A stretch of 41,293 bases of DNA from Magnetococcales bacterium (GTDB lineage: Bacteria > Pseudomonadota > Magnetococcia > Magnetococcales > DC0425bin3): NCBI GenBank assembly GCA_015228935.1, contig JADGCO010000035.1, positions 1-41,293 on the forward strand, read 5' to 3'. This document shows positions 2,253-38,698 of this stretch, one piece after another. Under the pieces are notes generated by a model. The model had not been told where the DNA came from. It saw only the letters and a list, made by a program, of their open reading frames with translations, and did not search any database. The position numbers and the translations under genes are program-made. Numbering within the stretch: position 1 is the first letter of the stretch; every line of letters starts with the position of its first letter.

Positions 2253-3140
2253 TCACTTTCGAGGTACATTGGCCAAAATGCGGTCCACATGTTCAAGAAA
2301 CCGCCCCACCAAAACAACAACCTGGTTCCGATCCATCTCATCCTCCAATTCAGGGCAGGAATCATAACGAAACATGGAGGCAAAATTAGTATATTCCATC
2401 AAAGGCATATATTCATCCGGAACCGTCGCACCATTCTGCTTCAAAAGAGAAGCCAGTTCGCCAAGATCATGTTTTTTTGGGAACTGCACATTCAGGATAC
2501 TCAACCACGCCTTCACTCCTTTCTCGACGGCTTGCTGCACATGAAACCCGAAAATTTCCACATCAAACTGCATAGGATCCTGCATTCTCAGAAGGGCGCG
2601 GTAATCCTTGTCCGCCATACGCCGCAACATCTCTGACTGGTCTCCGGTGTTCATTGCATGAGCCACTTCAAAATAGTTTATAGCAGGTTGAAATTGGTGA
2701 AAACCGAGCCTGCGATATGTTGATTCCAAATGGTTCGCATGTTCCAGAAGCAGTCGATTTGAATTTATTGCAGGAGACTCATAGAGCAACACCCCCTCCC
2801 GCACAGCCTCGGCAACGACGTGATTCAAGGCATCTTTCCAGTGCATCACCTCGTCATGACTGTACAGTAAAATGTCCTTTGACATGGGAAACCCGGCCAG
2901 AAGCTCTCGAATCCGCACCAACTCCCGCCAGCGGCTCCGCTCCTTCGAAAACCCTTCCTTCTCTACCACCAGCAGGTCGATATCGGAATCTGCGGTCGCT
3001 TCGCCACGCGCCATGGAACCAAAGAGGATGATCTGCTCCGGCTGCACGGCATCCACCAGGACGTGGACCATGGCATCCAGAATCTCCGGGGTCATGGGAA
3101 CCACACTGTCTTTCAGAAACCCTGGCGTGATGGGAACCAT
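2253..3140 (-). CDS. Fused nucleotidyltransferase (MNT)-HEPN protein
   Basis: A 295-residue two-domain protein. Residues about 20-110 form a minimal nucleotidyltransferase domain with the motif FGSMARGEATADSDIDLLVV (GSxxRG...SDxDL), so the metal-binding acidic residues are present. Residues about 150-290 form a HEPN domain of the PF05168 type: FGFHVQQAVEKGVKAWL, then FPKKHDLGELASLL, and a final FRYDSCP region. In two-gene MNT-HEPN toxin-antitoxin systems the MNT protein AMPylates and silences the HEPN RNase; here both halves are one polypeptide. No clear Rx4-6H RNase motif is seen, so nuclease activity is doubtful. The ATG at 3140 has a weak GGTGA site. The gene interrupts the nuo-midA order and follows a tandem repeat at its upstream end, which suggests later insertion. 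Function unknown. Confidence 0.8.
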   Translation of the reverse strand: MVPITPGFLKDSVVPMTPEILDAMVHVLVDAVQPEQIILFGSMARGEATADSDIDLLVVEKEGFSKERSRWRELVRIRELLAGFPMSKDILLYSHDEVMHWKDALNHVVAEAVREGVLLYESPAINSNRLLLEHANHLESTYRRLGFHQFQPAINYFEVAHAMNTGDQSEMLRRMADKDYRALLRMQDPMQFDVEIFGFHVQQAVEKGVKAWLSILNVQFPKKHDLGELASLLKQNGATVPDEYMPLMEYTNFASMFRYDSCPELEDEMDRNQVVVLVGRFLEHVDRILANVPRK

Positions 3141-4788: not shown

Positions 4789-6276
4789 TCAATGCATGGC
4801 CAGGGTCGTATGACCCCCTACCGCCTTGCCGGCAGACACTTGCGTCAGCAAATTTTCCACAGAAGCATGCATCACTTTCAGGAACGGGTCCGGATTGAAG
4901 CCGATCCAGAAGACCAGGATCAGCAAGGGGACAAAGAGGGCCAGTTCCCGGGGAGTGACATCGGTCATGGTCTGGACATCGGCATGCCGGATGTCGCCGA
5001 ACAGGACCTTTTTGAACATCCATAACATATAGGCCGCACCCAGGACCACGCCGGTTGCCGCCACCACCGTCACACCCTTGCTGGTGGCAAACATGCCCAG
5101 CAGGATGAGAAATTCGCCGACGAAACCATTGGTCCCCGGCAGCCCCACCGAGGCCATGGTAAAGACCATGAAGAGGGTCGCATAGACCGGCATGCGCAGG
5201 GCCAGGCCGCCAAACCGGGCAATTTCCCGGGTGTGCAGTCGGTCATACACCACGCCGACCAGCAGGAAGAGCGCTCCAGAGACCAGACCATGATTGACCA
5301 TTTGCAGGATGCCCCCTTCAATACCCAGTTGATTGAAGGCAAACAATCCCAGGGTCACAAAACCCATATGGGAGACCGAGGAATAGGCAATCAATTTTTT
5401 CAGGTCGGTCTGCATCAGGGCCACCAGGGCGGTATAGACCACCGCCACCAGGGAAAGGCCATAGATGAACGGCGCAAAATAATGGGCAGCATCCGGCAGC
5501 ATGGGGAGCGAAAAGCGCAAAAACCCATAAGCCCCCATTTTCAACAAAACCCCGGCCAGGATCACTGAACCCGCAGTCGGGGCTTCCACGTGAGCATCCG
5601 GCAGCCAGGTATGGACCGGCCACATGGGCACCTTGACGGCAAAGGAGATCATGAATCCCAGAAAGATCCATATTTGCATCTCCACGGGGAGGTGCAGTTT
5701 CATCAGTTCCGGAATGCTGAAAGTCTGTCCCTTGGTGGCCAGGACCAGCACGGCGATGAGCATGACCACGGATCCGGCCAGGGTGTACAGGAAAAACTTC
5801 AAGGCCGCATACACCCGGCGGGGACCACCCCACACGCCGATGATCAGAAACATCGGGATCAGCATGGCCTCCCACAGAATGTAGAAGAGCATGAAATCCA
5901 GGGCGCAGAACACGCCGACGACAAAGCTTTCCAGGGCCAGAAAGGCCATCATGTACTCGCGGACACGAATCTTGACCGATTCCCAGGAGGCCAGGATGCA
6001 GATGGGGGTCAACAGGGTGGTCAGCAGCACCAGGGGCAGACTGATCCCATCCACGCCCATCCGGTAGGCGATACCGAGTTCCGGCAGCCAGACGGACTCT
6101 TCGAGAAACTGGAATTGCGCTGTGGTGATGTCAAAGCCGGCATAGAGGCGCAGGCTTAACAGGAAGGTCACCAGGGAGACACCGAGGGCGATGAGTTTTG
6201 CGGACGCATCACTCCGGATCACCAGCAATATGGCTACGGCACCTGCCAGGGGAAGAAAGGTCACCAGACTCAACAT
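4789..6276 (-). CDS. nuoM: NADH-quinone oxidoreductase subunit M
   Basis: The second antiporter-like subunit of the complex I membrane arm, 495 residues from the chosen start. Diagnostic segments are FYILWEAMLIPMFLIIGVWG with the conserved transmembrane Glu, and HTWLPDAHVEAPTAGSVILAG followed by LLKMGAYG with the channel Lys. YSSVSHMGFVTLGL is also typical. An in-frame GTG at 6321 would give 510 residues, but the ATG at 6276 starts directly with the first membrane helix (MLSLVTFLPLAG), as in other NuoM proteins. Ribosome sites are weak for both. It lies between nuoL and nuoN in the conserved order. Confidence 0.95.
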   Translation of the reverse strand: MLSLVTFLPLAGAVAILLVIRSDASAKLIALGVSLVTFLLSLRLYAGFDITTAQFQFLEESVWLPELGIAYRMGVDGISLPLVLLTTLLTPICILASWESVKIRVREYMMAFLALESFVVGVFCALDFMLFYILWEAMLIPMFLIIGVWGGPRRVYAALKFFLYTLAGSVVMLIAVLVLATKGQTFSIPELMKLHLPVEMQIWIFLGFMISFAVKVPMWPVHTWLPDAHVEAPTAGSVILAGVLLKMGAYGFLRFSLPMLPDAAHYFAPFIYGLSLVAVVYTALVALMQTDLKKLIAYSSVSHMGFVTLGLFAFNQLGIEGGILQMVNHGLVSGALFLLVGVVYDRLHTREIARFGGLALRMPVYATLFMVFTMASVGLPGTNGFVGEFLILLGMFATSKGVTVVAATGVVLGAAYMLWMFKKVLFGDIRHADVQTMTDVTPRELALFVPLLILVFWIGFNPDPFLKVMHASVENLLTQVSAGKAVGGHTTLAMH

Positions 6277-6343
6277 TGCCACGATCCCCGCTCTTGTCTC
6301 CTGCGTTTTGCCAACTGACACGCCATCCGGAAGGAGATCCGGA

Positions 6344-8260
6344 TCAGACGTACCAGGTCACCAGGACCACCACACCGATCAACATGGCGAAGGCATAGTG
6401 ATAGATATAACCCGTTTGCAACTGCCGCACCCAGCCAGCCATCCGTTCCACGAGCCCGGCCAGGCCATTGACTCCATAACCATCGATGATGGTCTCATCC
6501 CCGGTCCGCCACAACCCTGCACCGATCAGGCGGGCCGGTTGCACGAACAGGCGGTCATAGAGCCGGTCGAAATACCAGGCATTGACCAGAAACTGGTAAA
6601 GTTTTTGCCATTTTCCTGCCAGACGGGCCGGCAGATCCGGCTGTTGGACGTACATTTTCCAGGCCAGACCGAGGCCCAGCAGAAACATGCCAAAGGGCAG
6701 CCATTTGATCACCCCGCCGACATGGTGGGCATTGGCCAGGGCATGATGGTTGGGAGCGACGAACACGGCATCCTTGAACCATCCCGCTTCCACCATGGGT
6801 GATCCCACGTAACCGGCGATGACGGCACCAACCGCCAGCAACATCAGAGGTCCGCGCATGCTCCAGGAAGGATCATGGGCATGCTCCCAGGCATGATGAT
6901 CGACCGGGTGGCCATGAAACGTCATGAAGAGCAGTCGGAAGGAATAAAACGTCGTCATGGCTGCCGACAGGATGCCCAATGCCCAGGCCAGGGTTCCGGT
7001 CAGGGTATGCGCGGCATAGGCCGACTCCAGGATGACATCCTTGGAGTAGAATCCGGCCAGGAACGGAAAGCCTGTCAGGGCCAGGGTGCCGATCATCATC
7101 AGGCCATAGGTGAGAGGAATTTTGCTTTTCAGACCACCCATGCGCCGCATGTCCTGTTCATGGTGCATGGCGCTGATGACCGCGCCGCACCCCAAAAAGA
7201 GCAGGGCCTTGAAAAAGGCGTGGGTCATCAAATGAAACATGGATGCCGCATAGGCTGAAACACCGGCGGCAAAAAACATGTACCCCAACTGCGAACAGGT
7301 GGAGTAGGCCACCACCCGCTTGATATCGTTTTGGACCAGGCCGACGCTGGCGGCAAAGAAGGCCGTGACGGCCCCCACCACCGTGACCACGGTCAGGGCC
7401 GTTTCCGACAGTTCGAACAGGGGCGAGGCGCGACAGACCATGAAGACTCCGGCTGTCACCATGGTGGCGGCATGGATCAAGGCCGAAACGGGTGTCGGAC
7501 CTTCCATGGCATCCGGCAGCCAGGTATGCAACCCGAGCTGGGCCGACTTGCCCATGGCACCGATAAAGAGCAGCAGGCAGATCAGGGTCATGGTATCGAC
7601 CGGACCCCAGAAGAGAAACTCCACCGTCCGGACGAACTGCCCGGTTCCGGCCAGATGGAACACCTTCTGGTAATCCAGGGTACCGAACACCATGTAGATG
7701 GTGAAAATACCCAGGGCAAAGCCGAAATCGCCCACCCGGTTGACCAGAAACGCCTTGATGGCAGCGTTGCAGGCCGACTCTTTCTTGAACCAGAAACCGA
7801 TCAGGAGATACGAGGCCAATCCCACCCCTTCCCAGCCGAAGAAGAGCTGCAAAAAATTGTCTCCGGTCACCAGCATGAGCATGGCAAAGGTGAAGAAGGA
7901 GAGGTAGCTGAAAAAGCGGGAGTGATCCGGATCCTCTTCCATGTAGCCGATGGAGTAGATGTGGACCATGCAGGAGACGCCGGTCACCACGATCAACATG
8001 ACGGCGGTCAGGCGGTCGATCAGCAGGGCAAAGCTCACGTGAAAATTGCCGGCCACGATCCAGGAGATGATCTGGGTATGTTCCGTGGCTCCATCGCCGA
8101 CGGCCACCCGGAAGAATGCCGAGATTGACAGAAGCAGGGCAATGGCCACGCCCAGGATGGTCACCTGCTGGCTCAAATGTTTGCCGATCCGGTGTCCGAA
8201 CAAACCGGCAATCAGGGCACCGGCCAGGGGTGCGAGGAGAATCAACAGGTTCATGCTCAT
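6344..8260 (-). CDS. nuoL: NADH-quinone oxidoreductase subunit L
   Basis: The distal antiporter-like subunit of complex I, 638 residues, the usual size for NuoL. It contributes a proton channel and the long lateral helix along the membrane arm. Family motifs: HIYSIGYMEEDP, FFGWEGVGLASYLLIGFW with the conserved Glu, HTWLPDAMEGPTPVSALIHA, and YSTCSQLGYMFFA. The C-terminal part (about residues 500-638) has the extra helices that distinguish NuoL from NuoM and NuoN. Start at 8260, with a second in-frame ATG two codons on; the ribosome site is weak. It follows nuoK by about 20 bases. Confidence 0.96.
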   Translation of the reverse strand: MSMNLLILLAPLAGALIAGLFGHRIGKHLSQQVTILGVAIALLLSISAFFRVAVGDGATEHTQIISWIVAGNFHVSFALLIDRLTAVMLIVVTGVSCMVHIYSIGYMEEDPDHSRFFSYLSFFTFAMLMLVTGDNFLQLFFGWEGVGLASYLLIGFWFKKESACNAAIKAFLVNRVGDFGFALGIFTIYMVFGTLDYQKVFHLAGTGQFVRTVEFLFWGPVDTMTLICLLLFIGAMGKSAQLGLHTWLPDAMEGPTPVSALIHAATMVTAGVFMVCRASPLFELSETALTVVTVVGAVTAFFAASVGLVQNDIKRVVAYSTCSQLGYMFFAAGVSAYAASMFHLMTHAFFKALLFLGCGAVISAMHHEQDMRRMGGLKSKIPLTYGLMMIGTLALTGFPFLAGFYSKDVILESAYAAHTLTGTLAWALGILSAAMTTFYSFRLLFMTFHGHPVDHHAWEHAHDPSWSMRGPLMLLAVGAVIAGYVGSPMVEAGWFKDAVFVAPNHHALANAHHVGGVIKWLPFGMFLLGLGLAWKMYVQQPDLPARLAGKWQKLYQFLVNAWYFDRLYDRLFVQPARLIGAGLWRTGDETIIDGYGVNGLAGLVERMAGWVRQLQTGYIYHYAFAMLIGVVVLVTWYV

Positions 8261-19686: not shown

Positions 19687-20511
19687 TTGACAACCTTGAA
19701 GCATGAAACCGTTCGAGTCACCTTCCCGGAAGGGACCCGTGTCCTGGTGGTGGAAGACGAAACTATCAATCGCCAGGTTGCCAAGGCCATGTTGCGTAAT
19801 CTTGGAATTGTCGCCGACGAGGCCGAAAATGGCCAGGAGGCGTTGACTTTGATGCAAAACAACCATTACGACCTGGTTCTGATGGACTGTCAGATGCCAT
19901 GCATGGATGGCTTTGATGCCACACGGGAATATCGTATTCTTGAAAGCCGGCGTTCCACCTATCTGCCCCTGCCCATCATTGCCCTGACCTCCCATTCCAC
20001 ACAGAAGAATCGGGAGCTTTGTCTGGCAGCGGGCATGGATGATTGTCTCATCAAGCCGGTCAATATGCGGGATTTCACCAATAAACTCCTGCTTTGGTTG
20101 GGTTTGCAATCTTCCATGCCAGCAACAGGACCGGTCAGTGACCATCTGTCATCCGACCCGGCCCAACCGGTTGATCTGCAACGCCTGAGCGAATTACAAC
20201 AAGCGCTGCGCAACGCTCCCGGTGGGTTCGCCCGACTGCTTGATCAATTCATCCGTGGGATGGAATTCCAGCTTGCCGAGATTCATACGGCCTTGCCTGC
20301 CGCCGAGTTTGACCTGGCCCAGCGCCGCACACACAATTTGAAATCCCAAAGCGCCATCTTTGGGGCCATGGTTCTTTCCGGACTGCTGAAACAGTTGGAC
20401 ATTCAAATACGTGCCCAGGCCTTATCCAAGTCCATGGAGCTGCTGGACCTGGTTCAACTGGAATTTTCCCGGGTCAAGCCAATCCTGGAAAAGGCACATC
20501 TGTCGCAGTGA
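19687..20511 (+). CDS. Receiver-Hpt phosphotransfer protein
   Basis: About 274 residues. The N-terminal receiver (about 10-130) has VVEDE, phosphoacceptor Asp67 (LMDCQMPCMDG) and a Lys in CLIKPV. The C-terminal Hpt domain (about 165-260) has His216 in THNLKSQSAIFGA, close to the usual HxLKG motif. Receiver-Hpt proteins without an output domain shuttle phosphoryl groups in multi-step relays. The likely start is TTG at 19687, with GGGAG 7 bases upstream; an in-frame TTG at 19660 would add nine residues. No ATG fits before the receiver. It lies about 125 bases after the His-less kinase gene and probably shares its transcript. Confidence 0.82.
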   Translation: MTTLKHETVRVTFPEGTRVLVVEDETINRQVAKAMLRNLGIVADEAENGQEALTLMQNNHYDLVLMDCQMPCMDGFDATREYRILESRRSTYLPLPIIALTSHSTQKNRELCLAAGMDDCLIKPVNMRDFTNKLLLWLGLQSSMPATGPVSDHLSSDPAQPVDLQRLSELQQALRNAPGGFARLLDQFIRGMEFQLAEIHTALPAAEFDLAQRRTHNLKSQSAIFGAMVLSGLLKQLDIQIRAQALSKSMELLDLVQLEFSRVKPILEKAHLSQ

Positions 20512-20919
20512 ATTTTTTTTGTACTAACAAAAATAATTAATTAAACTAAAAATCAGACTCATGGTCAAATCCGCTGTATGACTCAATTGCAAGGTGGGTG
20601 AAACCGGAAACATCGCCATTTTCACAGTAAAAAAATAAATTATTTTCAACAATTTGTGATTATACAAAGCAGGCAAGGAAGCATGGGAAGTGGAATTTTC
20701 AATCACCTCATATATTAATACTTGTTAATAATCTGGAGGACACTCTGAACGAAGGTCTTTTGGATGTCAACCCACAGTTCCAATCCGTTTCCGATGGTAT
20801 CAAACGAGAAATTGCTTCATACTGCAAAGTGGGTGAGAAGGTGGGTGAGTGTAAAAGGGGTGGGCATATCCGATGCTGAACGCTGTTCCATCTAAAATGC
20901 GGCAGACAAGGAAATGAAA
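20512..20919. other. AT-rich intergenic region with GTGGGTGA repeats
   Basis: The 400 bases before the binding-protein gene are AT-rich at the left end (20518-20740) and carry no plausible gene. GTGGGTGA occurs three times: 20594-20601, 20829-20836 and 20841-20848, the last two exactly 12 bases apart. Such spaced direct repeats resemble response-regulator sites, so they are candidate operators of the downstream operon. No clear promoter or terminator was found. Confidence 0.5.
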
Positions 20920-21945
20920 ATGAAAGTAAAATTTCGGGGGCACCTTGCGACGATATTGGTGGCATTGACGACCGGCTTGTCGGTTGCTGTGTCAGGGTTT
21001 GGTGAACAATCGGACGTGGAGTTCGCTCTTCGGGGACCGGCGTTCACGCCTGGCGCACCCGATCCAGCCCTGGTGTCACCCGAATGGATCCATAAAAAGA
21101 TCAGTTATCCAAAAGCTGTCGGGCATCTGGATCTCCGAATTCAAATGGACCAGAATTTATTCGATGCCTTGACCCCGATCATTGAAAACTACGCCAAAGA
21201 AAAAAATCTGCGGGTGCAGATCGAAAAAGGAACATGTGGGACCAGCTCCGGTCCGATTGAACGCAAGGAAGCGGACATGGCCGGGTTTTGTTGTCCTCCA
21301 GCCCCTTATGATCGTTTGCCCGGCATAGTCTTTCATACCATTGGTATCGTGCCGACCGTGTTGATTACCCATCCAGACAATCCGGTCGGCAGTGTGAGTT
21401 TTGGCGAAGTCCAGAAAATCTATGCCGGCAAGATTCGTTCCTGGAAAGAGTTAAGCGATCCCAAAAGCAAATCCATGACCGGCTCCATTCAACCGGTGGC
21501 ACGGTTGCATTGTGAAACACGACCCGGACACTGGCGGGATATTCTGGATAATAAAAACCTGTTTTTTCAGCAAACCATTTTTGTTGCCTCCATTCCGGAC
21601 ATGGTGGATGCCGTGGCCGCCAATCCGAATGCATTCGGTTGGGTTTCGCGCTGGGTGGTGGAGAACCAGGCCAACAAAGGTCGAGTCAAATTTGTCAAGC
21701 TGGGTGGGGTGGACCCGGACGACACCCAGGCCGTGGCTCAGGGCAGGTATCCCTACTTCAAGGTCATGAACCTGACCACCTGGGAAGGTGCCGCGGCCAA
21801 ACCCCAGGCCAACCAGGTCATCGACTACCTGCTGAATCAGTTCAATCAGGTCAAGCAACAGGCTTTTATCGTTCATGCCAGTCAACTGCGCCAGAATAAA
21901 TGGATCTTTTCCGGCAATGAACTGATCGGGATGCCTGCAAAATGA
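20920..21945 (+). CDS. Periplasmic phosphate-binding-like (PstS-type) solute-binding protein
   Basis: About 341 residues with a signal peptide (KVKFRGHLATILVALTTGLSVAVSG) and no lipobox. The mature part resembles the PBP-like phosphate-binding superfamily: DLRIQMDQNLFDALTPIIENYA early, an anion-loop-like GTCGTSSGPIERKEADMAGF, and later SFGEVQKIYAGKIRSWKEL, a phrase typical of PstS-like proteins. ATG at 20920 has AAGGA 7 bases upstream; an ATG at 20914 is too close to it. The stop overlaps the start of the hybrid kinase (ATGA), and no ABC permease is nearby. This suggests it is a sensory ligand receptor for that kinase rather than a transport component. The ligand is unknown; phosphate or another oxyanion is a guess. 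Confidence 0.8.
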   Translation: MKVKFRGHLATILVALTTGLSVAVSGFGEQSDVEFALRGPAFTPGAPDPALVSPEWIHKKISYPKAVGHLDLRIQMDQNLFDALTPIIENYAKEKNLRVQIEKGTCGTSSGPIERKEADMAGFCCPPAPYDRLPGIVFHTIGIVPTVLITHPDNPVGSVSFGEVQKIYAGKIRSWKELSDPKSKSMTGSIQPVARLHCETRPGHWRDILDNKNLFFQQTIFVASIPDMVDAVAANPNAFGWVSRWVVENQANKGRVKFVKLGGVDPDDTQAVAQGRYPYFKVMNLTTWEGAAAKPQANQVIDYLLNQFNQVKQQAFIVHASQLRQNKWIFSGNELIGMPAK

Positions 21946-29306: not shown

Positions 29307-30350
29307 ATGGACAGGCACGAAAAGTGTGGCGAGGAAAACAGGGTGTTCAAAAAGTCGGGCAGAGAGAACAATCGCCATTCCAGTCACAGGTCATTGTCTC
29401 CTCTGACAAAGGGACAATTTGCCACCATGGCACACCCGGTGCGTCAAGGACGGCGCAAACGCCGTCTCATCCTGCTCCTTTTCCTGGCGGTGTTCCTGGG
29501 TATTGGCCTGGCCAGATATCGTGGACCCGAACGAACCCCGAAAGAGACGATCCCCAGCCGCAGCACAGCAGATTGGCAGACATGTCTGACGCCAGGCAAG
29601 GGAGATCAACCGAAACCGGAAATGATCGAAATTCCCGACGGTGAGTACAACATGGGTCGATTGTCGCCATCATCGACCATCCAAACATTGTTGGTTGCTG
29701 CCGATCTGACCCGGATTCTGGTCAAAAAACCCTACTTCATCCAGAAACGCACGGTGACTCAGGAAGAGTTTGCCCTCTATGTCGCCACTGTGAAAACCTT
29801 GCCGGATGGAGAAGAAAAATCGCGACTCATGATCCAGATCGGCCTGCATTGGCAAAAACCAACCTCAGCCCCGTCCGATCACTCTTTTCTGACCGGCAGA
29901 CTCTTTGGCAGCAAAACAGAAACCCCGTTGCAAACGGTTTCCTGGGAAGCCGCGCAGGGATATGCCGAGTGGATCAGCAATCGCTCCGGATGTAAATTTC
30001 ATCTCCCCAGCCGCGAGGAGTGGGCGGCGGCGCTGATGTACCTGCATGAATCACCGATGCAGGAAGAGGCAGGTGTTCCCAATGCCGATGCCGTGCGGCA
30101 CAATCTCCTCCGCGGGGTGCAGGAGTGGACCCGCTCACCATGTTCTGGAGGGTATTATCTGGCAGGTGGGGATGCGACCCGGCAAACAAACGATGGAACA
30201 GGAGGATGGGGATGCATGCCAGCCATGGTCTCCATCGCCGGATTCCGATTGGTCCTGAAAATCAATGCCCCGACAGACCGGCAAACCACCCCTCCAACCC
30301 CTGTCAAACCAGAAAACAGGTTGCAAGGCACACAAGAGTCGATCCGGTGA
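29307..30350 (+). CDS. Membrane-anchored SUMF1/FGE-fold protein, non-catalytic
   Basis: About 347 residues. A basic stretch (RQGRRKRR) and one hydrophobic helix (LILLLFLAVFLGIGLA) near residue 60 form a membrane anchor, leaving a periplasmic C-terminal domain. That domain has SUMF1 landmarks: MIEIPDGEYNMG, then KRTVTQEEFALYV, VSWEAAQGYAEWI, FHLPSREEWAAAL, VQEWTRSP and the terminal IAGFRLVLK. The RGGS-x-C...C catalytic segment of true formylglycine-generating enzymes is missing, so it probably serves binding or structure. ATG at 29307 has GGGAG 8 bases upstream; ATG at 29427, just before the helix, is the alternative. It is the first gene of a five-gene plus-strand module. Confidence 0.75.
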   Translation: MDRHEKCGEENRVFKKSGRENNRHSSHRSLSPLTKGQFATMAHPVRQGRRKRRLILLLFLAVFLGIGLARYRGPERTPKETIPSRSTADWQTCLTPGKGDQPKPEMIEIPDGEYNMGRLSPSSTIQTLLVAADLTRILVKKPYFIQKRTVTQEEFALYVATVKTLPDGEEKSRLMIQIGLHWQKPTSAPSDHSFLTGRLFGSKTETPLQTVSWEAAQGYAEWISNRSGCKFHLPSREEWAAALMYLHESPMQEEAGVPNADAVRHNLLRGVQEWTRSPCSGGYYLAGGDATRQTNDGTGGWGCMPAMVSIAGFRLVLKINAPTDRQTTPPTPVKPENRLQGTQESIR

Positions 30351-30414
30351 TCATGAACAGCGACAACAGCCTGGCTGGGATTGGTCACTTGTCAGGTAGA
30401 AAATCAAGGTCAGC

Positions 30415-33126
30415 ATGAAAGGCAGAATGACCGTGAACATGAAATCCAGACGCATGAAAGAAAAAAGGTGTCGCATGTTGGGACGGTGGGGAGTTTTGGG
30501 CGGTGCCGTGTGCCTGTGGATGGTTTCTCTTCCGGTCGGAGCCGCCCCGCCGGTCAAGGGAGGAACCGGAAGTTGTGCCAGCGTGGATTTTGCCCCCTAC
30601 CACCAGAACAAGGTGTTGAAATGGACCGGTCCGGTGGTGCGGGTATCGCGTGGCTGGGCACCCATGTTCGTCAATCCCCAGGCCGGTGCCAAAATGGCCG
30701 ATCTGGCCTTCAATCAAACCGTTGAAATTCTCGAAGAGTCCGGTGAACGCCTCAAGGTCCGCTCGGCCCGCTTTCAGGACCGCGCCTCCCAGACCGGTTG
30801 GGTCCACAAGGCAGATCTTCTCTGTCGTGACCTGCCCATCAAAGGCGAGTCCGGCCTGGAAACCAAATTTTTCATCCGCACGTCCACCATGGCCCGGGAA
30901 GAGGGCAAGGGAGACCCCACCGTGCGGGTCTTTCAGGATCCGGAACTGGTCGAATGCGTCGGTGGCAAGGATCACTGCCGGGAAGGAGCCTCCCGTTTTC
31001 ACATGTATTACGTCATGGACCAGCGGGACAAATCCCTGCTTCTGGCAGATCGTTACCGCCTGAAAGAAGATGACATTCTGGTTGGCTGGGTCAATGAGAA
31101 CAATGGTTTCCAGTGGGATAATGCCTTTGGTCTGCGACCCCGTGAAGAGATCAAGGCACCGGATGGACAGGGTCCCGGAACCGTCTGCACCTACGAACGT
31201 CTGGAAGATGCCGTCGCCCGCTCGGCAGCTGCCTGCAACCCGGTGGAAGGCAGCAACAAGTGGTTCAAATCCTCCCTGCGCATTCCGGTATTGGACATGG
31301 TCGATGCCCAGGGTCGCCATGTGGAACCCGGTGATCTGGCCACCCCGGCCCGGGAAGAGGGGCGACGCTTCTTCAAGGTGGCCCTGGCCCGACCCGGCCT
31401 GGTGGGACGCCCGGTCGGAGATGGCAAGTTTGCCATCTCGCCAACCCTGGCCCAACGCATCATGCCCGAATTCAAGTCCCTCTCCTCGAAAAAAAATGTG
31501 GACATATTTTTCGTCCTGGATGCCACCGCCAGCATGGACGAAGCAATCGATGCGGTGCGCGGTACCGCAACCAAACCCGGAGTCATCCAGGAAATCATCC
31601 ATGGCCTGAAAAATACCCCCGGCTTCAAGGAGACACAATTCCGCTTCGGTTTTCGTGTGTTCCGTGACAATTACGCAGACAGACTCATTCCCAACTCCCC
31701 AGGAGACGGGGTCGGCGAGGGATACCCCCTGCCGGCAACCTGCCAGTTGAGTCCAGAACAACAGACCAAAACCTATGAGGATTTCCAGAAAGCCATTGCC
31801 CAGGTCAAGGTGACCAGCGACGACCAGGACGATTACGAGGAAAATGTGTACGGCGGCCTCTTCCAGGCCTTGAAACAGGATATCCAATCCTGCCCGGATC
31901 ACCTGAAACTCATGTTTCTGATCGGTGACAATGGCTACCGCAGTGGCCAACTGTACGTGAACGGCAAAGGCAAACGGTTTGAACGGTCCAAATACCGGAA
32001 TCCAGTGGAAACGGAAACCCTGGTTGCCTTGTTGCGGGGCGGTAACAAACCCGGCGTCAAGGGCAACAACATTCTGCCCTTTGTGATCCAAACCCCTTCA
32101 CGATCCGAAAGGACCAAACATCCGGAACTCTACAATGCCGCCTATGCCAAATTCGAATTGCAGATGCGCCAGATTCTCCAGCAAAGTCTGCCCGGCGACA
32201 GCTCCGACAATGAACATTTCTTCCGCATGGGTGAAGAAAAACTGCTGTCCCGGTTGGTGGGTACGGTAGAAAAACTCGGCGGCAGCACCCTGATCAATGA
32301 AATCATCCTGGATATTCACGGCGGAGCCGCCCTCAATACGGTCATTGAACGGCTGCGGCGGGAACGGGTGGATATTCCCGGCGTCTACTGGCACATCCTG
32401 AAGCAGGGGGCCTGCGGTGATCTGGGTGAACAGTGCGAACGTCGGGTGTTTGACACCACGTCGGTCGGCTATGTCGAAGCCAATGACAAAGTGGTGGAAG
32501 ATTTGTGGGTGGACAGCAATGCGCTCACTTCCTGGATTCGCATCCTGAAAGGCTTCGAAGGCTACCATGAACTCCCCGAACCTCAACTGCGACGGGCGCT
32601 GATCAGTGCCCTGGTGCTGGGCATGCAACAGGAAATGCGTCTGCCGCCTCTGGAAGTTTCCGGCGAAACACCCGCCGAATATGTCCAACGCCGGGGCGGT
32701 CTGCCGGTGCGGCGGCACAGTCCCCTCCTGAGCTATCAGGTATCGGCGCTCTCCGTGGAAAAAACGTTGCGCGACAAGGATAAGCGCCTCATCGTCGCCG
32801 ATGCCTCCGGCAAACCGATCCTCGACAAGGCCAAACGCCCCATCCAGGCCGTCACCTACTGCGAGTTGAAACGTCTGGCCATGTGGGCCATCCATTCGCG
32901 ACAAATGCTCGAAATCATCGAACGCGGCCAGCAAAAGCCCAGCTTCCAGGTGCTTCCCGCCAACAAGGTCCAAAATTGCCCGGACGCCACGGACAATGGT
33001 CTGGCCATGCCCCAGGTTGCAGGCAATGTCACAGGGGTTCCCCTCGGGCCGGACAAGAATTATCGCTTTGGCCACGAACTTGGCGGTCGGCGAGGCTACT
33101 GGATTCCCCAGGACTATCTGCCATGA
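30415..33126 (+). CDS. Secreted SH3-like and von Willebrand factor A domain protein
   Basis: A 903-residue protein with a signal peptide (about 1-45, ending LPVGAAPP). Residues about 70-140 look like a bacterial SH3 domain, ending GWVHKADLLC. A second SH3-like piece lies near 160-245 (ILVGWVNENNGFQWD). A vWA domain begins at about 363: FFVLDATASMDEA, with Asp369, in which the metal-binding DxSxS reads DATAS, then GFRVFRDNYAD and LKLMFLIGDNG. The last 300 residues are a domain I do not recognise. The GW...W layout before a vWA recalls the C-terminal half of PpkA-type proteins, but no kinase is present. The stop overlaps the ABC ATPase start (ATGA). It is probably a periplasmic partner of the transporter. 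Confidence 0.8.
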   Translation: MKGRMTVNMKSRRMKEKRCRMLGRWGVLGGAVCLWMVSLPVGAAPPVKGGTGSCASVDFAPYHQNKVLKWTGPVVRVSRGWAPMFVNPQAGAKMADLAFNQTVEILEESGERLKVRSARFQDRASQTGWVHKADLLCRDLPIKGESGLETKFFIRTSTMAREEGKGDPTVRVFQDPELVECVGGKDHCREGASRFHMYYVMDQRDKSLLLADRYRLKEDDILVGWVNENNGFQWDNAFGLRPREEIKAPDGQGPGTVCTYERLEDAVARSAAACNPVEGSNKWFKSSLRIPVLDMVDAQGRHVEPGDLATPAREEGRRFFKVALARPGLVGRPVGDGKFAISPTLAQRIMPEFKSLSSKKNVDIFFVLDATASMDEAIDAVRGTATKPGVIQEIIHGLKNTPGFKETQFRFGFRVFRDNYADRLIPNSPGDGVGEGYPLPATCQLSPEQQTKTYEDFQKAIAQVKVTSDDQDDYEENVYGGLFQALKQDIQSCPDHLKLMFLIGDNGYRSGQLYVNGKGKRFERSKYRNPVETETLVALLRGGNKPGVKGNNILPFVIQTPSRSERTKHPELYNAAYAKFELQMRQILQQSLPGDSSDNEHFFRMGEEKLLSRLVGTVEKLGGSTLINEIILDIHGGAALNTVIERLRRERVDIPGVYWHILKQGACGDLGEQCERRVFDTTSVGYVEANDKVVEDLWVDSNALTSWIRILKGFEGYHELPEPQLRRALISALVLGMQQEMRLPPLEVSGETPAEYVQRRGGLPVRRHSPLLSYQVSALSVEKTLRDKDKRLIVADASGKPILDKAKRPIQAVTYCELKRLAMWAIHSRQMLEIIERGQQKPSFQVLPANKVQNCPDATDNGLAMPQVAGNVTGVPLGPDKNYRFGHELGGRRGYWIPQDYLP

Positions 33127-33923
33127 CCTGGGGAGTGGAAATCACCGAGGCCGAGGTGGGATGGGGCGATACCTTCCGTCTGACCGTGGATGACATCCAT
33201 GTAGAGGCCGAAACCATCTCCCGGCGTCTGCCAGTCCTGGGACGCAGCGGCAGCGGCAAGAGTACCTTGTTGTATCTCTTAACCTTCTTGAAAAAACCCC
33301 GCCGGGGAACCGTGCGCTGGGTTTTTCCCAACGGTGCCCAGGCCCAGTGGGGTCCGAAAGGGCTGGAACGACGCCACTCGGATGTGGACATGACCGAATT
33401 GCGGCGACGCTATTTCGGCTTTGCCTACCAGCGCAGTACCCTGACACCCTATCTGAATGTCGGAGAAAATTTGCGCTATCCCCTGCAATTGCACGGCGGT
33501 TTGCCCAATCATGAAATCGAGGATCAGGTCCAGATGGCCGTGCAACAGGTCCTGATCTGTGGTCAGGGAGAGGACATGTATCACAGCGACAGTCAGGATG
33601 TGGTCGGCGCTTTCTTGAAGCGTTATCCCAACCAGCTCTCGGGTGGACAACTGCAACGTGTGGCCCTGGCCCAGGCCATGATTCACAATCCGAATGTCCT
33701 GTTTGCCGATGAACCCACGGGCAATCTCGATGCGGCCACCCGGAAAGAAGTGATGGCCGTCGTGGATCGCTGGCTGGATCAGGGGGATCGCTTGTTGATC
33801 TGGGTGACACATCATGTGTCCGACGCCGTGGATCCCCGGGTGACGCATCGGATTCTTGTGTCACACGGGCATTGTCAGCTCCAGGGGCGCACCCGTCCCC
33901 CAGCTCCGGAAAGCAGCGCATGA
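33123..33923 (+). CDS. LolD/MacB-type ABC transporter ATPase
   Basis: A 266-residue ATPase of the family that works with FtsX/MacB-type permeases. Walker A is GRSGSGKST, the Q-loop FAYQRSTLTPYLNVGENL, the signature LSGGQLQRVALAQAM, Walker B VLFADEPTGNLD, and the switch His is in WVTHH. A short insertion after Walker A (about 55-85) is unusual. Start ATG overlaps the vWA stop and the stop overlaps the permease start, so three genes are translationally chained. Such ATPases drive mechanotransmission or lipoprotein extraction rather than classical uptake. A frame open upstream to 32883 lies inside the vWA gene and is not used. Confidence 0.92.
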   Translation: MTWGVEITEAEVGWGDTFRLTVDDIHVEAETISRRLPVLGRSGSGKSTLLYLLTFLKKPRRGTVRWVFPNGAQAQWGPKGLERRHSDVDMTELRRRYFGFAYQRSTLTPYLNVGENLRYPLQLHGGLPNHEIEDQVQMAVQQVLICGQGEDMYHSDSQDVVGAFLKRYPNQLSGGQLQRVALAQAMIHNPNVLFADEPTGNLDAATRKEVMAVVDRWLDQGDRLLIWVTHHVSDAVDPRVTHRILVSHGHCQLQGRTRPPAPESSA

Positions 33924-35821
33924 GTGAACAAAGCGGTTCTGCCTATATCAAACCCTCACGGCGACGGCGTTCCGGTTTCGTGCCGGTCTGGATTTCTTTG
34001 GGGTTGCGGGCCTTTCGGCGCTCCTTCTGGTGTGGATGTTTCGGATGTGACTCGGGTGGAAGGGATTTTGTCTGGCTGTCCCTGCTGCTGACCCTGGTCA
34101 TGACCATGTCCCTGGTGTTTGCAGGAACCCGGGTCGGTTTCCTCGACCGGCTGGCGGACACCCTGATCGGCAATATCGAACCCAACGGTGTCCCGGTCTG
34201 GGTGACTTCCCACTGGGAAAATCAGCAGGGCATCGACGTCGATCTGTTGCACAAATTGACCACCCTGAAACCTTCCGTGCCGCTCACCGTCCATCCTTTT
34301 CGACGCCTGGGTGACACACAGCCCGGTGTGCATCTGCCAACTCCGCAAAGCTGGAAAGGCAGTGTTCCCTTTGCCGGTTGGGCAGTCTATCCCAATGATC
34401 CCCTCTGGAAGCTGGCCACATCCGGCACGACCCGGCTGGGCATCCCCTCCACCGATGAGAGCTATCCCTGGCTGGGGCTGCCTCTGGAAGTGGTGTTGAA
34501 TACCGCCCAGTTCCGGCGTCATTTCGACTATACGGCCTACCGGGATGCCGTCAATCCGGTTTTGACCGAACAAAAACGACCGGCACTCCCCTTCACGCTG
34601 GATTGGGACAATCCTGCCCGGGCACTGGAGTCGCTCTGGTTGCGGGTCACCGTCTCCCAGGAAGAGCGGTTGATTCCGTTCAAGGTGCGTTGGGTAAGCC
34701 ATGTGCCGGCCATGGAACCGGTCGCCTTTTTGTTTCCACTCAATACCTATCATGCCTTGTTGGCCGCATACCATCTGCCGGACCTTCGTTACCAGCCGGA
34801 AAACGAAGGGCGGGGGGATTCGATCAGCGATTATCGCCTGTTGACACAACCCACCTATCCTCGGGAGACCATCAGCCAGTTTGCAGCCTGTGTGCAAAAG
34901 GAGTTGCAAAATACCGGTGTCGAGGATCTGCCAAGTGTATCCAGGCAAAAATGCCCCCCACCAGCGCTCCTTGCCAAAGAGGAAGAAACCAAAAAGGGAG
35001 GAGAGAACAATGCCCCAGCCTGGAAAAGTCAATGGGACACCCTCAACCATGACCGTCATCATCAGGTTTGGGTTCCCTGTCTGAGACTTTCCCAGAGTGA
35101 TGCATTGCGTCATACCCTCTGTCCCGACCCGGATGGAGAAACGACCGGAAATGCCAGATTGTTCGTCCCCTGGAATTTGACCCAGGCCGGTCTGGCTTTT
35201 TCCACCGTGCATGTGTTCATTCCCAATGCGAGCCATCTGGCCCAGATGATCGAGCTGATCCAGGAGGTGAAACGTGCGGATGGCCGGCGGGCCTTCAACA
35301 TCCATCCCACCTATCTGGATGCCATGAGTCGCTTCAACCTGTTGAGTGACATGCTGGGATCCTTGATCCCGGCATTTGCCGGTTCGTTTCTGTTGTTGTT
35401 GACGGCTTTGCTGTTTGCCCAGATCGGAGGCGTGATCGACCGGCGGCGCAATCATTTCGGCATCCTGATGAGCCGAGGGGTTTCCTGGGCGTCCATCTAT
35501 GCCAAGGTGATCCTGCAAATGGTTTTAGCGACGATGGGTGGCAGTCTGGTGGCAGTTTTTGGGTTGGTGCCGGCGTTGCGCTGGTTCATGATGCGCGATT
35601 TCAATGTGGTCCTCTCGCATTATCGGGAGTTGCTCCCTCCAGACCATGGTCTGGAAATCATGCCCCTCTCCTGGCAACCCATCGCCATGACCGTGGGAGG
35701 CGTTGCCTTGGCAGTCATCCTGGTGGCCGTGATCCTTCTGTTGCGGGTCCCACTCTGGTGGAAAACCACCCCCTCCGATCTCCTGCATGGCAATTACAGC
35801 ACCCGGCAAAATTCAGATTGA
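33920..35821 (+). CDS. MacB/FtsX-like ABC permease with large periplasmic domain
   Basis: A 633-residue inner-membrane protein with four predicted helices: one at about 51-68 and three near 480-505, 525-553 and 590-615, which is the MacB/LolC/FtsX topology. The long loop between helices 1 and 2 (about 400 residues) would be periplasmic. The conserved region after helix 2 (RRRNHFGILMSRGVSWASIYA) fits the FtsX-like domain, which contacts the ATPase. The periplasmic domain contains a Lys/Glu-rich stretch (KEEETKKGGENN) and several Cys, and does not look like a standard MacB domain. ATGA overlap with the ATPase gene. Probably a non-importing transporter coupled to the vWA and SUMF1-fold proteins; that is inference from context. 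Confidence 0.85.
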   Translation: MSEQSGSAYIKPSRRRRSGFVPVWISLGLRAFRRSFWCGCFGCDSGGRDFVWLSLLLTLVMTMSLVFAGTRVGFLDRLADTLIGNIEPNGVPVWVTSHWENQQGIDVDLLHKLTTLKPSVPLTVHPFRRLGDTQPGVHLPTPQSWKGSVPFAGWAVYPNDPLWKLATSGTTRLGIPSTDESYPWLGLPLEVVLNTAQFRRHFDYTAYRDAVNPVLTEQKRPALPFTLDWDNPARALESLWLRVTVSQEERLIPFKVRWVSHVPAMEPVAFLFPLNTYHALLAAYHLPDLRYQPENEGRGDSISDYRLLTQPTYPRETISQFAACVQKELQNTGVEDLPSVSRQKCPPPALLAKEEETKKGGENNAPAWKSQWDTLNHDRHHQVWVPCLRLSQSDALRHTLCPDPDGETTGNARLFVPWNLTQAGLAFSTVHVFIPNASHLAQMIELIQEVKRADGRRAFNIHPTYLDAMSRFNLLSDMLGSLIPAFAGSFLLLLTALLFAQIGGVIDRRRNHFGILMSRGVSWASIYAKVILQMVLATMGGSLVAVFGLVPALRWFMMRDFNVVLSHYRELLPPDHGLEIMPLSWQPIAMTVGGVALAVILVAVILLLRVPLWWKTTPSDLLHGNYSTRQNSD

Positions 35822-35880
35822 CGTGTCGTATTGAACATCATATGCGCATTTACCCTTATTTCATGCCAGGGAAGACAACA

Positions 35881-37146
35881 ATGCAACGAATCCTATCCTG
35901 TTTCTCGGGTTGTCTGGCCTTGTTCATTCTGTATGGCTACGGTATGGAAGAGGCTTGGGCAGGAAAATACAAATATACCGAAGCCGATTTGCGCGCCCAA
36001 TGTCGCGAAGATGCGGCGAGTGATCGTATTCCGGCTGACGAATTGGAAGAGTATCTGCGAGGGTGCCTGCAAAATCTCGTGCAGCAGGCCGGCTTGTCCC
36101 TGAGTGACACCCAGATTGCGGCAGCGAGTCGAGCGGATGCACGCAATCCCGGTGCAGGTCGTGCCCCGGATTCCGGGCGTGATCAGGGCCTTGACGCATC
36201 CGCGCCCCAATCCAGGACCAAGCCGTCCGGCAAGACGGCCAAGGGCAAACATACCGAGGCGGATTTGCGCCGGCAGTGCCGGGAAGATGCCGTGGAAGAC
36301 AGGGTGACCGACGACGAAATGACGGATTATTTGCAGGGATGCCTGAAAAATCTGGCCCGACAGGCAGGCGTGTCCCTGACGGGTGAAGAGGAGTCTCCGG
36401 TTCAGGAAAAGCCGGTGCAGGCACCCCAGGCACGGGTCAGGAAAGGCAGCGAGTCGGTTCTTGCAGGTGCCCAGGGAATCGAATTTGTCAAAATTCCGGC
36501 TGGCACCTTTGAAATCGGCTGTGGAACCTGGCAGTCAAACTGTTTCAATTCAGAAAAACCAGCGCAACAGGCCAGGGTGGAACAGTTTGAATTGGGCCGA
36601 TATGAGGTGACGCAGGGGCAGTGGCAGGCAGTCATGGGAAAAAATCCCGCCAAGTATAAATCCTGCGGGGAAAATTGTCCGGTTGAACAGGTCTCCTGGA
36701 ACGATGTTCAGGAGCTGATCAATCAATTGAATGCGCAAGGGGGCAATTGCCGGTATCGCCTGCCAACCGAAGCTGAATGGGAGTTTGCCTGCCGTTCCGG
36801 AGGGGATCCAGAAAAATTTTGCGGCGGTCACGATATCGACCTGGTGGCGTGGCATGAAGGCAATGCCGAGGGAAAAACACATCCTGTCGGCAAGAAAGCC
36901 AAAAATGGTTTGGGATTGTACGACATGAGCGGCAATGTATGGGAATGGACCTGTTCCGAAATGGGGCGCTATGGTGACCCCGACAAGAGCCATACCCGCT
37001 GCGGCAGCGGCGATGCCAATCGGGTCTTGCGGGGCGGCAGTTGGTACTACACCGAGACACGGGTGCGTTCCACCAATCGCTTCGACTACGATCCGGGATA
37101 TCGGAATGGGGATATCGGCGTGCGTCTGGCCAGAACCTGCCCTTAA
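35881..37146 (+). CDS. Secreted SUMF1/FGE-fold protein with duplicated Cys repeat
   Basis: A 421-residue protein. A signal peptide (MQRILSCFSGCLALFILYGY..) is likely. Two copies of a repeat of about 45 residues follow (about 33-77 and 119-163): each has T-E-A-D-L-R-x-Q-C-R-E-D-A, then Y-L-x-G-C-L-x-N-L, with two conserved Cys. The C-terminal SUMF1 domain (about 200-421) is complete in outline: FVKIPAGTFEIGC, RYEVTQGQW, VSWNDVQELI, YRLPTEAEWEFAC, GLYDMSGNVWEWT, RVLRGGSWYY. At the catalytic Cys pair of true enzymes it has Tyr/Arg (RGGSWYYTETRVRSTNR), so formylglycine synthesis is not expected. AGGGAAG lies 6 bases before the chosen ATG. Last gene of the module, 59 bases after the permease. Confidence 0.85.
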   Translation: MQRILSCFSGCLALFILYGYGMEEAWAGKYKYTEADLRAQCREDAASDRIPADELEEYLRGCLQNLVQQAGLSLSDTQIAAASRADARNPGAGRAPDSGRDQGLDASAPQSRTKPSGKTAKGKHTEADLRRQCREDAVEDRVTDDEMTDYLQGCLKNLARQAGVSLTGEEESPVQEKPVQAPQARVRKGSESVLAGAQGIEFVKIPAGTFEIGCGTWQSNCFNSEKPAQQARVEQFELGRYEVTQGQWQAVMGKNPAKYKSCGENCPVEQVSWNDVQELINQLNAQGGNCRYRLPTEAEWEFACRSGGDPEKFCGGHDIDLVAWHEGNAEGKTHPVGKKAKNGLGLYDMSGNVWEWTCSEMGRYGDPDKSHTRCGSGDANRVLRGGSWYYTETRVRSTNRFDYDPGYRNGDIGVRLARTCP

Positions 37147-37161
37147 AAATGATTCACGCCC

Positions 37162-37920
37162 CTATTCCTCTTCCGGGGGCAGCGCTTCCCGGACAACCTG
37201 CACATACTCTTCCAGCGTGGCAAGCAGCCGCTCATGCATGAAGGTCTGGAAGGGGTACGGGTCATCCGTGAGAGAAGATTTTTCCAGGGCATCGAGATAG
37301 AGTTTGCGTTCAACGGGTCGAATGGCAATGGGAGGATAACCATGGCGGATCAGCAGTAGATTCATCAAGAGCCGTGCCGTGCGACCGTTACCATCGCTGA
37401 ACGGGTGGATGGCGGTCAGGCGGAAATGACCTGTAAATGCACTTTCCGGCGTGGGTGGTGCCTGCGCAAGCCAATCACCCAACTCCTGCATCAAGTGTGG
37501 AATTCTGGCCGGATTGGGAAAGATGACCGGTGATCCGGCAATGCGTCTGGGATGCCGACTGTATATTCCGGCAATTTCCGGATGGCTACGGGCCACAATG
37601 CGGCGATGCAGCTCACACACAATCTGTTCACCGACAGGTGTGCTTGTAGTCGCCAGGGTGCGCATCCATTGCAAGGTCGCATAATGGTCCACCGCCTCCA
37701 AATGTTCCCGCAGCGACTTTCCCCCAACCGTGATGCCGTGTTCAATGACCTCGGCGGTTTCCCGATGGGTGAGGGTGTTTCCTTCGATGGCATTCGACGT
37801 ATAGGTCAGATCGACATCGTAATATTTTTGCAGGTTGGCCAACACTTCCAACGATAAAGGTCGCCAACTGTCAAGCAGCTTTTTTTTTTCGGCAATGTTA
37901 TTGAGCAAGTCAGCAGGCAT
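37162..37920 (-). CDS. Fic-family protein (predicted AMP transferase)
   Basis: A 252-residue protein with the Fic motif HPFSDGNGRTARLL near the middle; the catalytic His, Asp, Gly-Asn-Gly-Arg and final Arg are all present. An N-terminal inhibitory motif of the (S/T)xxxE(G/N) type is seen in TSNAIEGNTLT, so this is a self-inhibited class II Fic protein that should be silent until released. Fic enzymes transfer AMP or another nucleotide part to target proteins. ATG at 37920 fits the family start (PADLLxxI); ATG at 37956 is possible; neither has a ribosome site. It overlaps the TIR gene end on the same strand, so the two are probably co-translated. It converges with the SUMF1 gene, 15 bases away. 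Confidence 0.9.
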   Translation of the reverse strand: MPADLLNNIAEKKKLLDSWRPLSLEVLANLQKYYDVDLTYTSNAIEGNTLTHRETAEVIEHGITVGGKSLREHLEAVDHYATLQWMRTLATTSTPVGEQIVCELHRRIVARSHPEIAGIYSRHPRRIAGSPVIFPNPARIPHLMQELGDWLAQAPPTPESAFTGHFRLTAIHPFSDGNGRTARLLMNLLLIRHGYPPIAIRPVERKLYLDALEKSSLTDDPYPFQTFMHERLLATLEEYVQVVREALPPEEE

Positions 37921-38698
37921 GGCTGGTTGGTTCTGCTCTTCCCCCTTTGAATTCATGCTGAATATCAGGGTTGACCACTGCGGAGTTTTCAAGATTGAGC
38001 TGCAAGCCTGTCAAGCGCGACAAGCCCCTGAGAATCTGCTTTTCAGCATCGGGTGATCTCATGTCGGCCCATTGAATATGCTCTAATATATCCGGAACAG
38101 GTGTGTCATCCAGCCGCACAGGGATAATGGGGATATCAACATCACCTCGCGATTTAAACAGCTTGATTGCAAATGCAATCTCGCGCTTGAGGTGATCACT
38201 GTTGACAGAGTTCTTTGAGAGAAAAACAACAGCGGAACTGCACTCTTCGAGCGCATGTTCGATAGTTGCCATGATGTTTTGACCAGGAACGATTTGTTCC
38301 ACGTCCAACCAGGGATTCAGACCTGCATTGCGCACAGATTCAACAATCTTTTTGGCGGTCAATAAATCCTCGTGGGCGTAACTAATAAAAACGTTGGGGG
38401 ATCGACGAATCCGCATTCTTTTATGAAGATCCTTGACGTTTAATAATGCCAGAAACGCAAGAAGGATTGTTGCAAGAATCATAATAATATATTGAGAATA
38501 GTCAGAAATTTTTTTCACATCCATAAATAAATTACAATACCCCATGGAATAAAGAAATTCCACAAAATTATTAGTCATTTTATTAGAAGAAATCATCGGA
38601 AGAATCGCAAGAATCGCAAGAATCGCAAGAATAAAGAATATTCTCAACTCCGATGCTGCTTTTTGAAAAGCAATTATTATTTCTAATGCTTTTCTCAA
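37910..38698 (-). CDS. Membrane-anchored TIR-domain protein
   Basis: A 262-residue protein. Two hydrophobic helices (about 19-36, ILAILAILAIL, and 68-86) anchor it; the TIR domain is residues about 101-235. TIR motifs: NVFISYAHEDLLTAKKI, LNPWLDVEQIVPGQN, ALEECSSAVVFLSKNSVNSDHL and Glu173 in KREIAFA, the position of the NADase glutamate in active TIR domains. Start is TTG at 38698 with AAGGAG 6 bases upstream, one base after the stop of the membrane-protein gene. AT-rich codons contrast with flanking genes, suggesting transfer. Bacterial TIR domains commonly degrade NAD+ or make cyclic ADP-ribose signals in phage defence. Membrane anchoring and partnering with Fic here are unusual. Function is inferred. 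Confidence 0.88.
   Translation of the reverse strand: MRKALEIIIAFQKAASELRIFFILAILAILAILPMISSNKMTNNFVEFLYSMGYCNLFMDVKKISDYSQYIIMILATILLAFLALLNVKDLHKRMRIRRSPNVFISYAHEDLLTAKKIVESVRNAGLNPWLDVEQIVPGQNIMATIEHALEECSSAVVFLSKNSVNSDHLKREIAFAIKLFKSRGDVDIPIIPVRLDDTPVPDILEHIQWADMRSPDAEKQILRGLSRLTGLQLNLENSAVVNPDIQHEFKGGRAEPTSHAC
38601..38632. repeat. 9-bp tandem repeat in the TIR gene
   Basis: AGAATCGCA is repeated three times plus a partial unit (38601-38632). It encodes Ala-Ile-Leu repeats in the first membrane helix. Because the unit is 9 bases, copy changes keep the frame but alter helix length by three residues per unit. Confidence 0.9.

Follow-up and report, generated by a model that had tools for sequence, protein, structure and literature searches.

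A four-gene envelope module of Magnetococcia

Nearly every good-quality genome of Magnetococcia, a class of magnetotactic bacteria, keeps a module of four genes, encoding a SUMF1-fold protein (SUMF_A), a vWA protein, an ABC ATPase and an FtsX/MacB-type permease, which is probably a device for sensing or remodelling the cell envelope. Its architecture is well supported; its function we infer. The window, i.e. the whole stretch of 41,293 bases that was analysed, represents most of contig C35 in a 4.7 Mb Magnetococcales genome, and MAGs assigned to Magnetococcales are its nearest named relatives. Upstream of the module lie a complex I operon and two-component genes, tRNA-Pro and HU genes are also found around it, and Fic, TIR, Era and RecO genes (the last named from sequence and position) lie downstream. 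Directly downstream of the complex I operon there is a nucleotidyltransferase-HEPN fusion gene (2253-3140, minus strand).

The locus was originally predicted to be a five-gene module, and five plus-strand ORFs with the predicted folds are indeed present between 29427 and 37146, four of them recognized by Pfam and the vWA protein by its MIDAS motif and predicted fold. The fifth encodes a second SUMF1-fold protein, SUMF_B. The vWA, ATPase and permease genes are chained, as had been noticed, by ATGA overlaps at 33123-33126 (vWA/ATPase) and 33920-33923 (ATPase/permease). Among 48 genomes of the class, 42 encode the permease and 43 the vWA protein, each being present in 26 of the 27 good-quality genomes and essentially in a single copy per genome. 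Each of the 20 Magnetococcia neighbourhoods examined retains the order SUMF_A-vWA-ATPase-permease, and the 4-nt overlap between the vWA and ATPase genes is kept in most relatives. Chance can be excluded as an explanation, because the vWA-ATPase-permease order recurs in 20/20 of these neighbourhoods and in three alphaproteobacteria. Clustering of the neighbouring ORFs in the 20 neighbourhoods revealed no fifth conserved gene family at the module, and no counterpart of SUMF_B was found near it in any Magnetococcia relative examined, including those of the same genus. The conserved unit is the first four genes only. Accordingly, the predicted linkage in relatives holds throughout the class for the four core genes but not for SUMF_B, and only in this genome do two SUMF1 proteins flank the transporter. 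Two genomes belonging to a single genus have a gene pair, judged by eye to encode an AAA/OLD-like ATPase and a small partner, inserted between the ATPase and permease genes (L073:9421-11213 and L075:8829-10597). A literature search combining Magnetococcia with these domains returned nothing relevant; the module is a nearly universal operon of magnetotactic cocci that has no description in the literature searched.

Component proteins

SUMF_A (29427..30350, plus strand; 307 aa) is encoded by the conserved first gene of the module and matches PF03781 (FGE-sulfatase) with 60.4 bits at a cut-off of 23.3 bits; this domain is present in 17 of the 19 members of its family. Its start was initially placed at 29307, yet 29427 is more plausible, since this is where both the similarity within the family and the hydrophobic anchor start. 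With one N-terminal hydrophobic stretch (residues 13-31), SUMF_A looks membrane-anchored rather than freely secreted, the latter having been predicted for both SUMF1 proteins. FGE enzymes use an active-site Cys pair shortly after an RGGS motif. This pair is missing from both proteins: SUMF_B reads RGGSWYYTETRVRS, and SUMF_A has no RGGS motif and a spacing of 24 residues between its invariant C239 and C263. The sequences thus support the original view that both SUMF1 proteins are non-catalytic.

SUMF_B (35833..37146, plus strand; PF03781, 151.7 bits) is a secreted, non-conserved neighbour of the module and belongs to the large SUMF1 family of this genome, which has 27 PF03781 matches, with paralogues reaching 46% identity to SUMF_B over 311 aa. 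A Cys-containing repeat, ADLRxQCREDAxxDR...YLxGCLxNL, occurs twice in SUMF_B (window 35970-36380) and was not seen in the fetched stretches of the other SUMF1 genes of the genome. Directly after SUMF_B, on the opposite strand, are overlapping Fic-domain and TIR-domain genes (37162-38698, minus strand), both matching candidate defence models; the TIR-domain gene encodes N-terminal hydrophobic segments. For the module itself, a reading as an anti-phage system was rejected, the only match being a generic ABC match to mad3.

The vWA protein (30415..33126, plus strand; 903 aa) comprises a signal sequence, which is its sole hydrophobic segment, an SH3-like region, a vWA domain with an intact MIDAS and a helical C-terminal part; it has no kinase domain. 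By sequence, Pfam yielded only sub-threshold VWA_4 and SH3_3 matches, and no solved structure was retrieved. The vWA assignment therefore relies on the MIDAS motif together with the fold prediction. An alignment of 31 homologues, distant ones included, shows no variation at the MIDAS-type residues D369, T371, S373 and D505, and the predicted fold matches integrin I domains (Foldseek probability 1.00, E about 1e-5) in an AlphaFold model with a mean pLDDT of 59 (mostly 60-85 in the vWA region).

The ATPase (33123..33923, plus strand; 266 aa) is of the MacB/LolD/FtsE type according to Pfam (ABC_tran, 3e-21), NCBIfam, where FtsE/LolD are the best matches, and the phylogenetic tree; Walker A, LSGGQ and Walker B motifs are complete. 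The permease (33920..35821, plus strand; 633 aa) displays the features of a type VII ABC permease, namely, an FtsX match above the cut-off (26.6 against 25.5 bits), four TM segments (50-68, 482-500, 530-548 and 590-608) and a large periplasmic domain between TM1 and TM2. Four hydrophobic segments are likewise present in most relatives. The periplasmic domain, ~410 aa long, is without clear sequence relatives, and a sequence search of solved structures returned no convincing match for the permease. Its model (pLDDT 65) gave weak fold matches (E 0.025-0.2), the best five being LolE, BceB and MacB. Overall, confidence in the structure models is moderate to low.

Homologues outside Magnetococcia

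The module is rare outside Magnetococcia. Among the other Pseudomonadota of a 398-genome sample, the vWA protein was found only in the alphaproteobacterium G059, which is also the only one of 385 genomes of its class to encode it; genomes outside Pseudomonadota were reached by a single pattern scan only. Two further homologues came to light by other routes, one in Pinisolibacter and one on a Sagittula plasmid. All three alphaproteobacteria have the vWA-ATPase-permease order, and in Sagittula a SUMF1 gene matching the SUMF_A profile (3.8e-17) lies upstream. This distant version of the module resides on a conjugative plasmid of Sagittula stellata (NZ_CP155730.1; L148, 7402-23044), where a 1068-aa protein is encoded between the SUMF1 and vWA genes. 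In Pinisolibacter and G059, a large secreted protein is encoded upstream of the vWA gene (L091:7616-9877 and L147:11551-13569), the C-terminal parts of the two proteins being alike by eye.

The downstream neighbours of the alphaproteobacterial modules raise the question of whether the module helps to build or energise an appendage on the cell surface, for instance a Tad pilus. In Pinisolibacter and G059, the permease gene is followed by a CpaF-type ATPase gene, with Tad or CpaB genes nearby (those of Pinisolibacter were named from sequence), and in Sagittula a MotA/TolQ/ExbB-type gene lies downstream of the module. However, no conserved appendage gene is found beside the module in Magnetococcia, and we consider a role in appendage support quite unlikely. 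Together with export, discussed below, it is one of the two main rivals to the function that we propose.

Proposed function

We propose that the four genes encode a single envelope module in which a type VII ABC complex would drive a periplasmic vWA/SUMF1 assembly and thereby sense or remodel the envelope, a reading that in our judgement stands about evenly between right and wrong. The ATPase and permease would form a mechanotransmitting ABC complex of the MacB superfamily (type VII), with ATP binding and hydrolysis in the cytoplasm moving the large periplasmic domain of the permease. This movement could act on a periplasmic complex formed by the vWA protein and SUMF_A, in which the former may contribute metal-dependent ligand binding and the latter may serve as a membrane-anchored partner, and change its conformation or the way it binds a ligand; the module would thereby sense or remodel something in the periplasm or the outer membrane. 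The reading is supported by the linkage and order of the genes, the vWA/ATPase overlap, the match to the PpkA vWA domain described below and the type VII topology, as well as by the alphaproteobacterial homologues and kinase-less Pseudomonadaceae clusters that share the layout. It is weakened by the fact that the similarity to PpkA is significant for the vWA domain only, by the position of the ATPase outside the TagT clade and by the limited confidence of the structure models. An ATPase-powered periplasmic assembly had already been suggested in the original prediction, and the conserved linkage, the four-TM type VII topology and the intact MIDAS are consistent with it, although the second SUMF1 protein does not seem to be one of its parts.

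Alternatively, the module could be an exporter or a lipoprotein-sorting ABC system akin to LolCDE or MacAB, with the vWA and SUMF1 proteins serving as periplasmic substrate acceptors or chaperones. Consistent with this, the ATPase is of the LolD/MacB/FtsE type, its scores against E. coli MacB and LolD slightly exceeding the one against TagT, and the permease has its best fold matches in LolE, BceB and MacB. Yet no conserved TolC or LolA-type gene, nor a MacA-type adaptor gene as expected for MacAB-TolC, adjoins the module in the 20 neighbourhoods, there is a single permease gene, and the partners are vWA and SUMF1 proteins, which makes export a rather unlikely function. More broadly, the type VII systems MacB, LolCDE, FtsEX and BceAB share the ATPase family and the four-TM permease topology with the envelope module, which differs from them in its vWA and SUMF1 partners and in the periplasmic domain of its permease.

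Comparison with TagQRST-PpkA and related clusters

The closest known system to the module is TagQRST-PpkA, which was overlooked when the genes were said to match no named system. With PppA, it makes up the sensory relay (threonine phosphorylation pathway) that serves the H1-type T6SS in Pseudomonas. The Pseudomonas Tag loci were reached through T6SS matches, and the Tag names rest on layout and the published operon. The Pseudomonas operon encodes PppA, PpkA (a kinase followed by an SH3-like and vWA ectodomain), TagT, TagS, TagR (SUMF1) and TagQ, thus sharing with the module the vWA-ATPase-permease order, a four-TM permease and a linked SUMF1 protein. In profile-to-profile comparison with hhalign, the vWA domain of the window matched that of PpkA with P 8.7e-11, and its profile matched single PpkA sequences at 3.1e-7 and 3.7e-8, compared with 0.024-0.027 for two generic vWAs of the same genome and 0.16 for the reversed profile. 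By profile, the vWA domain of the module is of the PpkA type and homologous to that of PpkA. The N- and C-terminal regions of the two proteins yielded no significant profile match, and an extension of the homology to these parts, where the endings YWIPQDYLP and YRVPLSTLP are similar, was rejected as not significant.

The remaining components do not support orthology with TagRST. The permease matches TagS with P 0.0026 in the TM region only, and the SUMF1 protein is present in the module but the profile comparison of SUMF_A with TagR reached no significance. In the ATPase tree, TagT forms its own clade (100/99), whereas the window ATPase groups with those of Magnetococcia and alphaproteobacteria (100/99); the deep branches are long and their order is unsure. 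Furthermore, the SUMF1 gene follows the permease gene in TagQRST-PpkA but comes first in the module, and the permease is ~400 aa long in the former and 633 aa in the latter. A search for TssC (PF05943) across the 48 Magnetococcia genomes gave no match, while an E. coli control was positive, and a link of the module to T6SS was therefore rejected. Neither kinase, phosphatase nor TagQ genes are linked to the module in the 20 Magnetococcia neighbourhoods. Because it has no fused kinase and no T6SS marker, and because its ATPase lies outside the TagT clade, the module is not a member of TagQRST-PpkA, although in layout it resembles TagRST combined with the PpkA ectodomain. By analogy, it may also work like them, acting much as TagRST on the PpkA ectodomain but without the kinase output.

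The same layout feeds PpkA in Pseudomonas, and the module could form the input part of a pathway that runs through a Ser/Thr kinase encoded at another site in the genome. There are nine Pkinase matches in the genome, two of them sharing an open frame with a SUMF1 domain, away from the module (G000:C69 near 5439-7373 and G000:C40 near 19895-21676). By contrast, the signal sequence is the sole hydrophobic segment of the vWA protein, no kinase or phosphatase gene is linked in any relative examined, and kinase-less clusters also occur in Pseudomonadaceae; such a pathway therefore seems highly improbable.

These kinase-less vWA-TagT-TagS-TagR-TagQ clusters are found in Pseudomonadaceae other than those with the complete operon (L188, L190-L196 and L198), several of them in TssC-less genomes, and in the loci inspected they lie beside SrfB and SrfC genes. 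In one further locus (L189), a vWA gene is located inside an srf cluster without TagT/S/R/Q; a SUMF_A-like gene upstream of it (3.8e-5) was rejected, since the match covers a biased region and, of the profile, only the variable N-terminus, and no SUMF1 was detected there by Pfam. Like the envelope module, the srf-linked clusters combine a kinase-less vWA protein, an ABC ATPase, a permease and a SUMF1 protein, but their ATPases fall within the TagT clade, outside which the module ATPase lies, and SrfB/SrfC adjoin them. Neither SrfB nor SrfC was found in Magnetococcia, but the SrfB search was run without a positive control, so its absence is unproven. Tag genes beside srf genes without T6SS have also been reported in host-associated Deltaproteobacteria (PMC3608642). 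Thus, the Pseudomonadaceae clusters and these Deltaproteobacteria indicate that T6SS-less relays of this layout exist in more than one lineage.

According to an earlier description, TagQRST occurs only in Pseudomonas (PMC6082577). Mutation of tagS and tagT only reduces T6SS baseplate assembly (PMC6657622). A kinase-less, T6SS-less module of the TagRST layout that is conserved across a whole class allows one to ask what the ABC-vWA-SUMF1 unit does alone. More tentatively, it is possible that the module is a core, T6SS-independent envelope machine of Magnetococcia, with a type VII ABC driving a periplasmic vWA/SUMF1 complex, and that the Pseudomonas T6SS attack sensor represents a specialised offshoot within a broader set of relays, which would also be attached to Tad pili, MotA/ExbB-like genes and srf genes.
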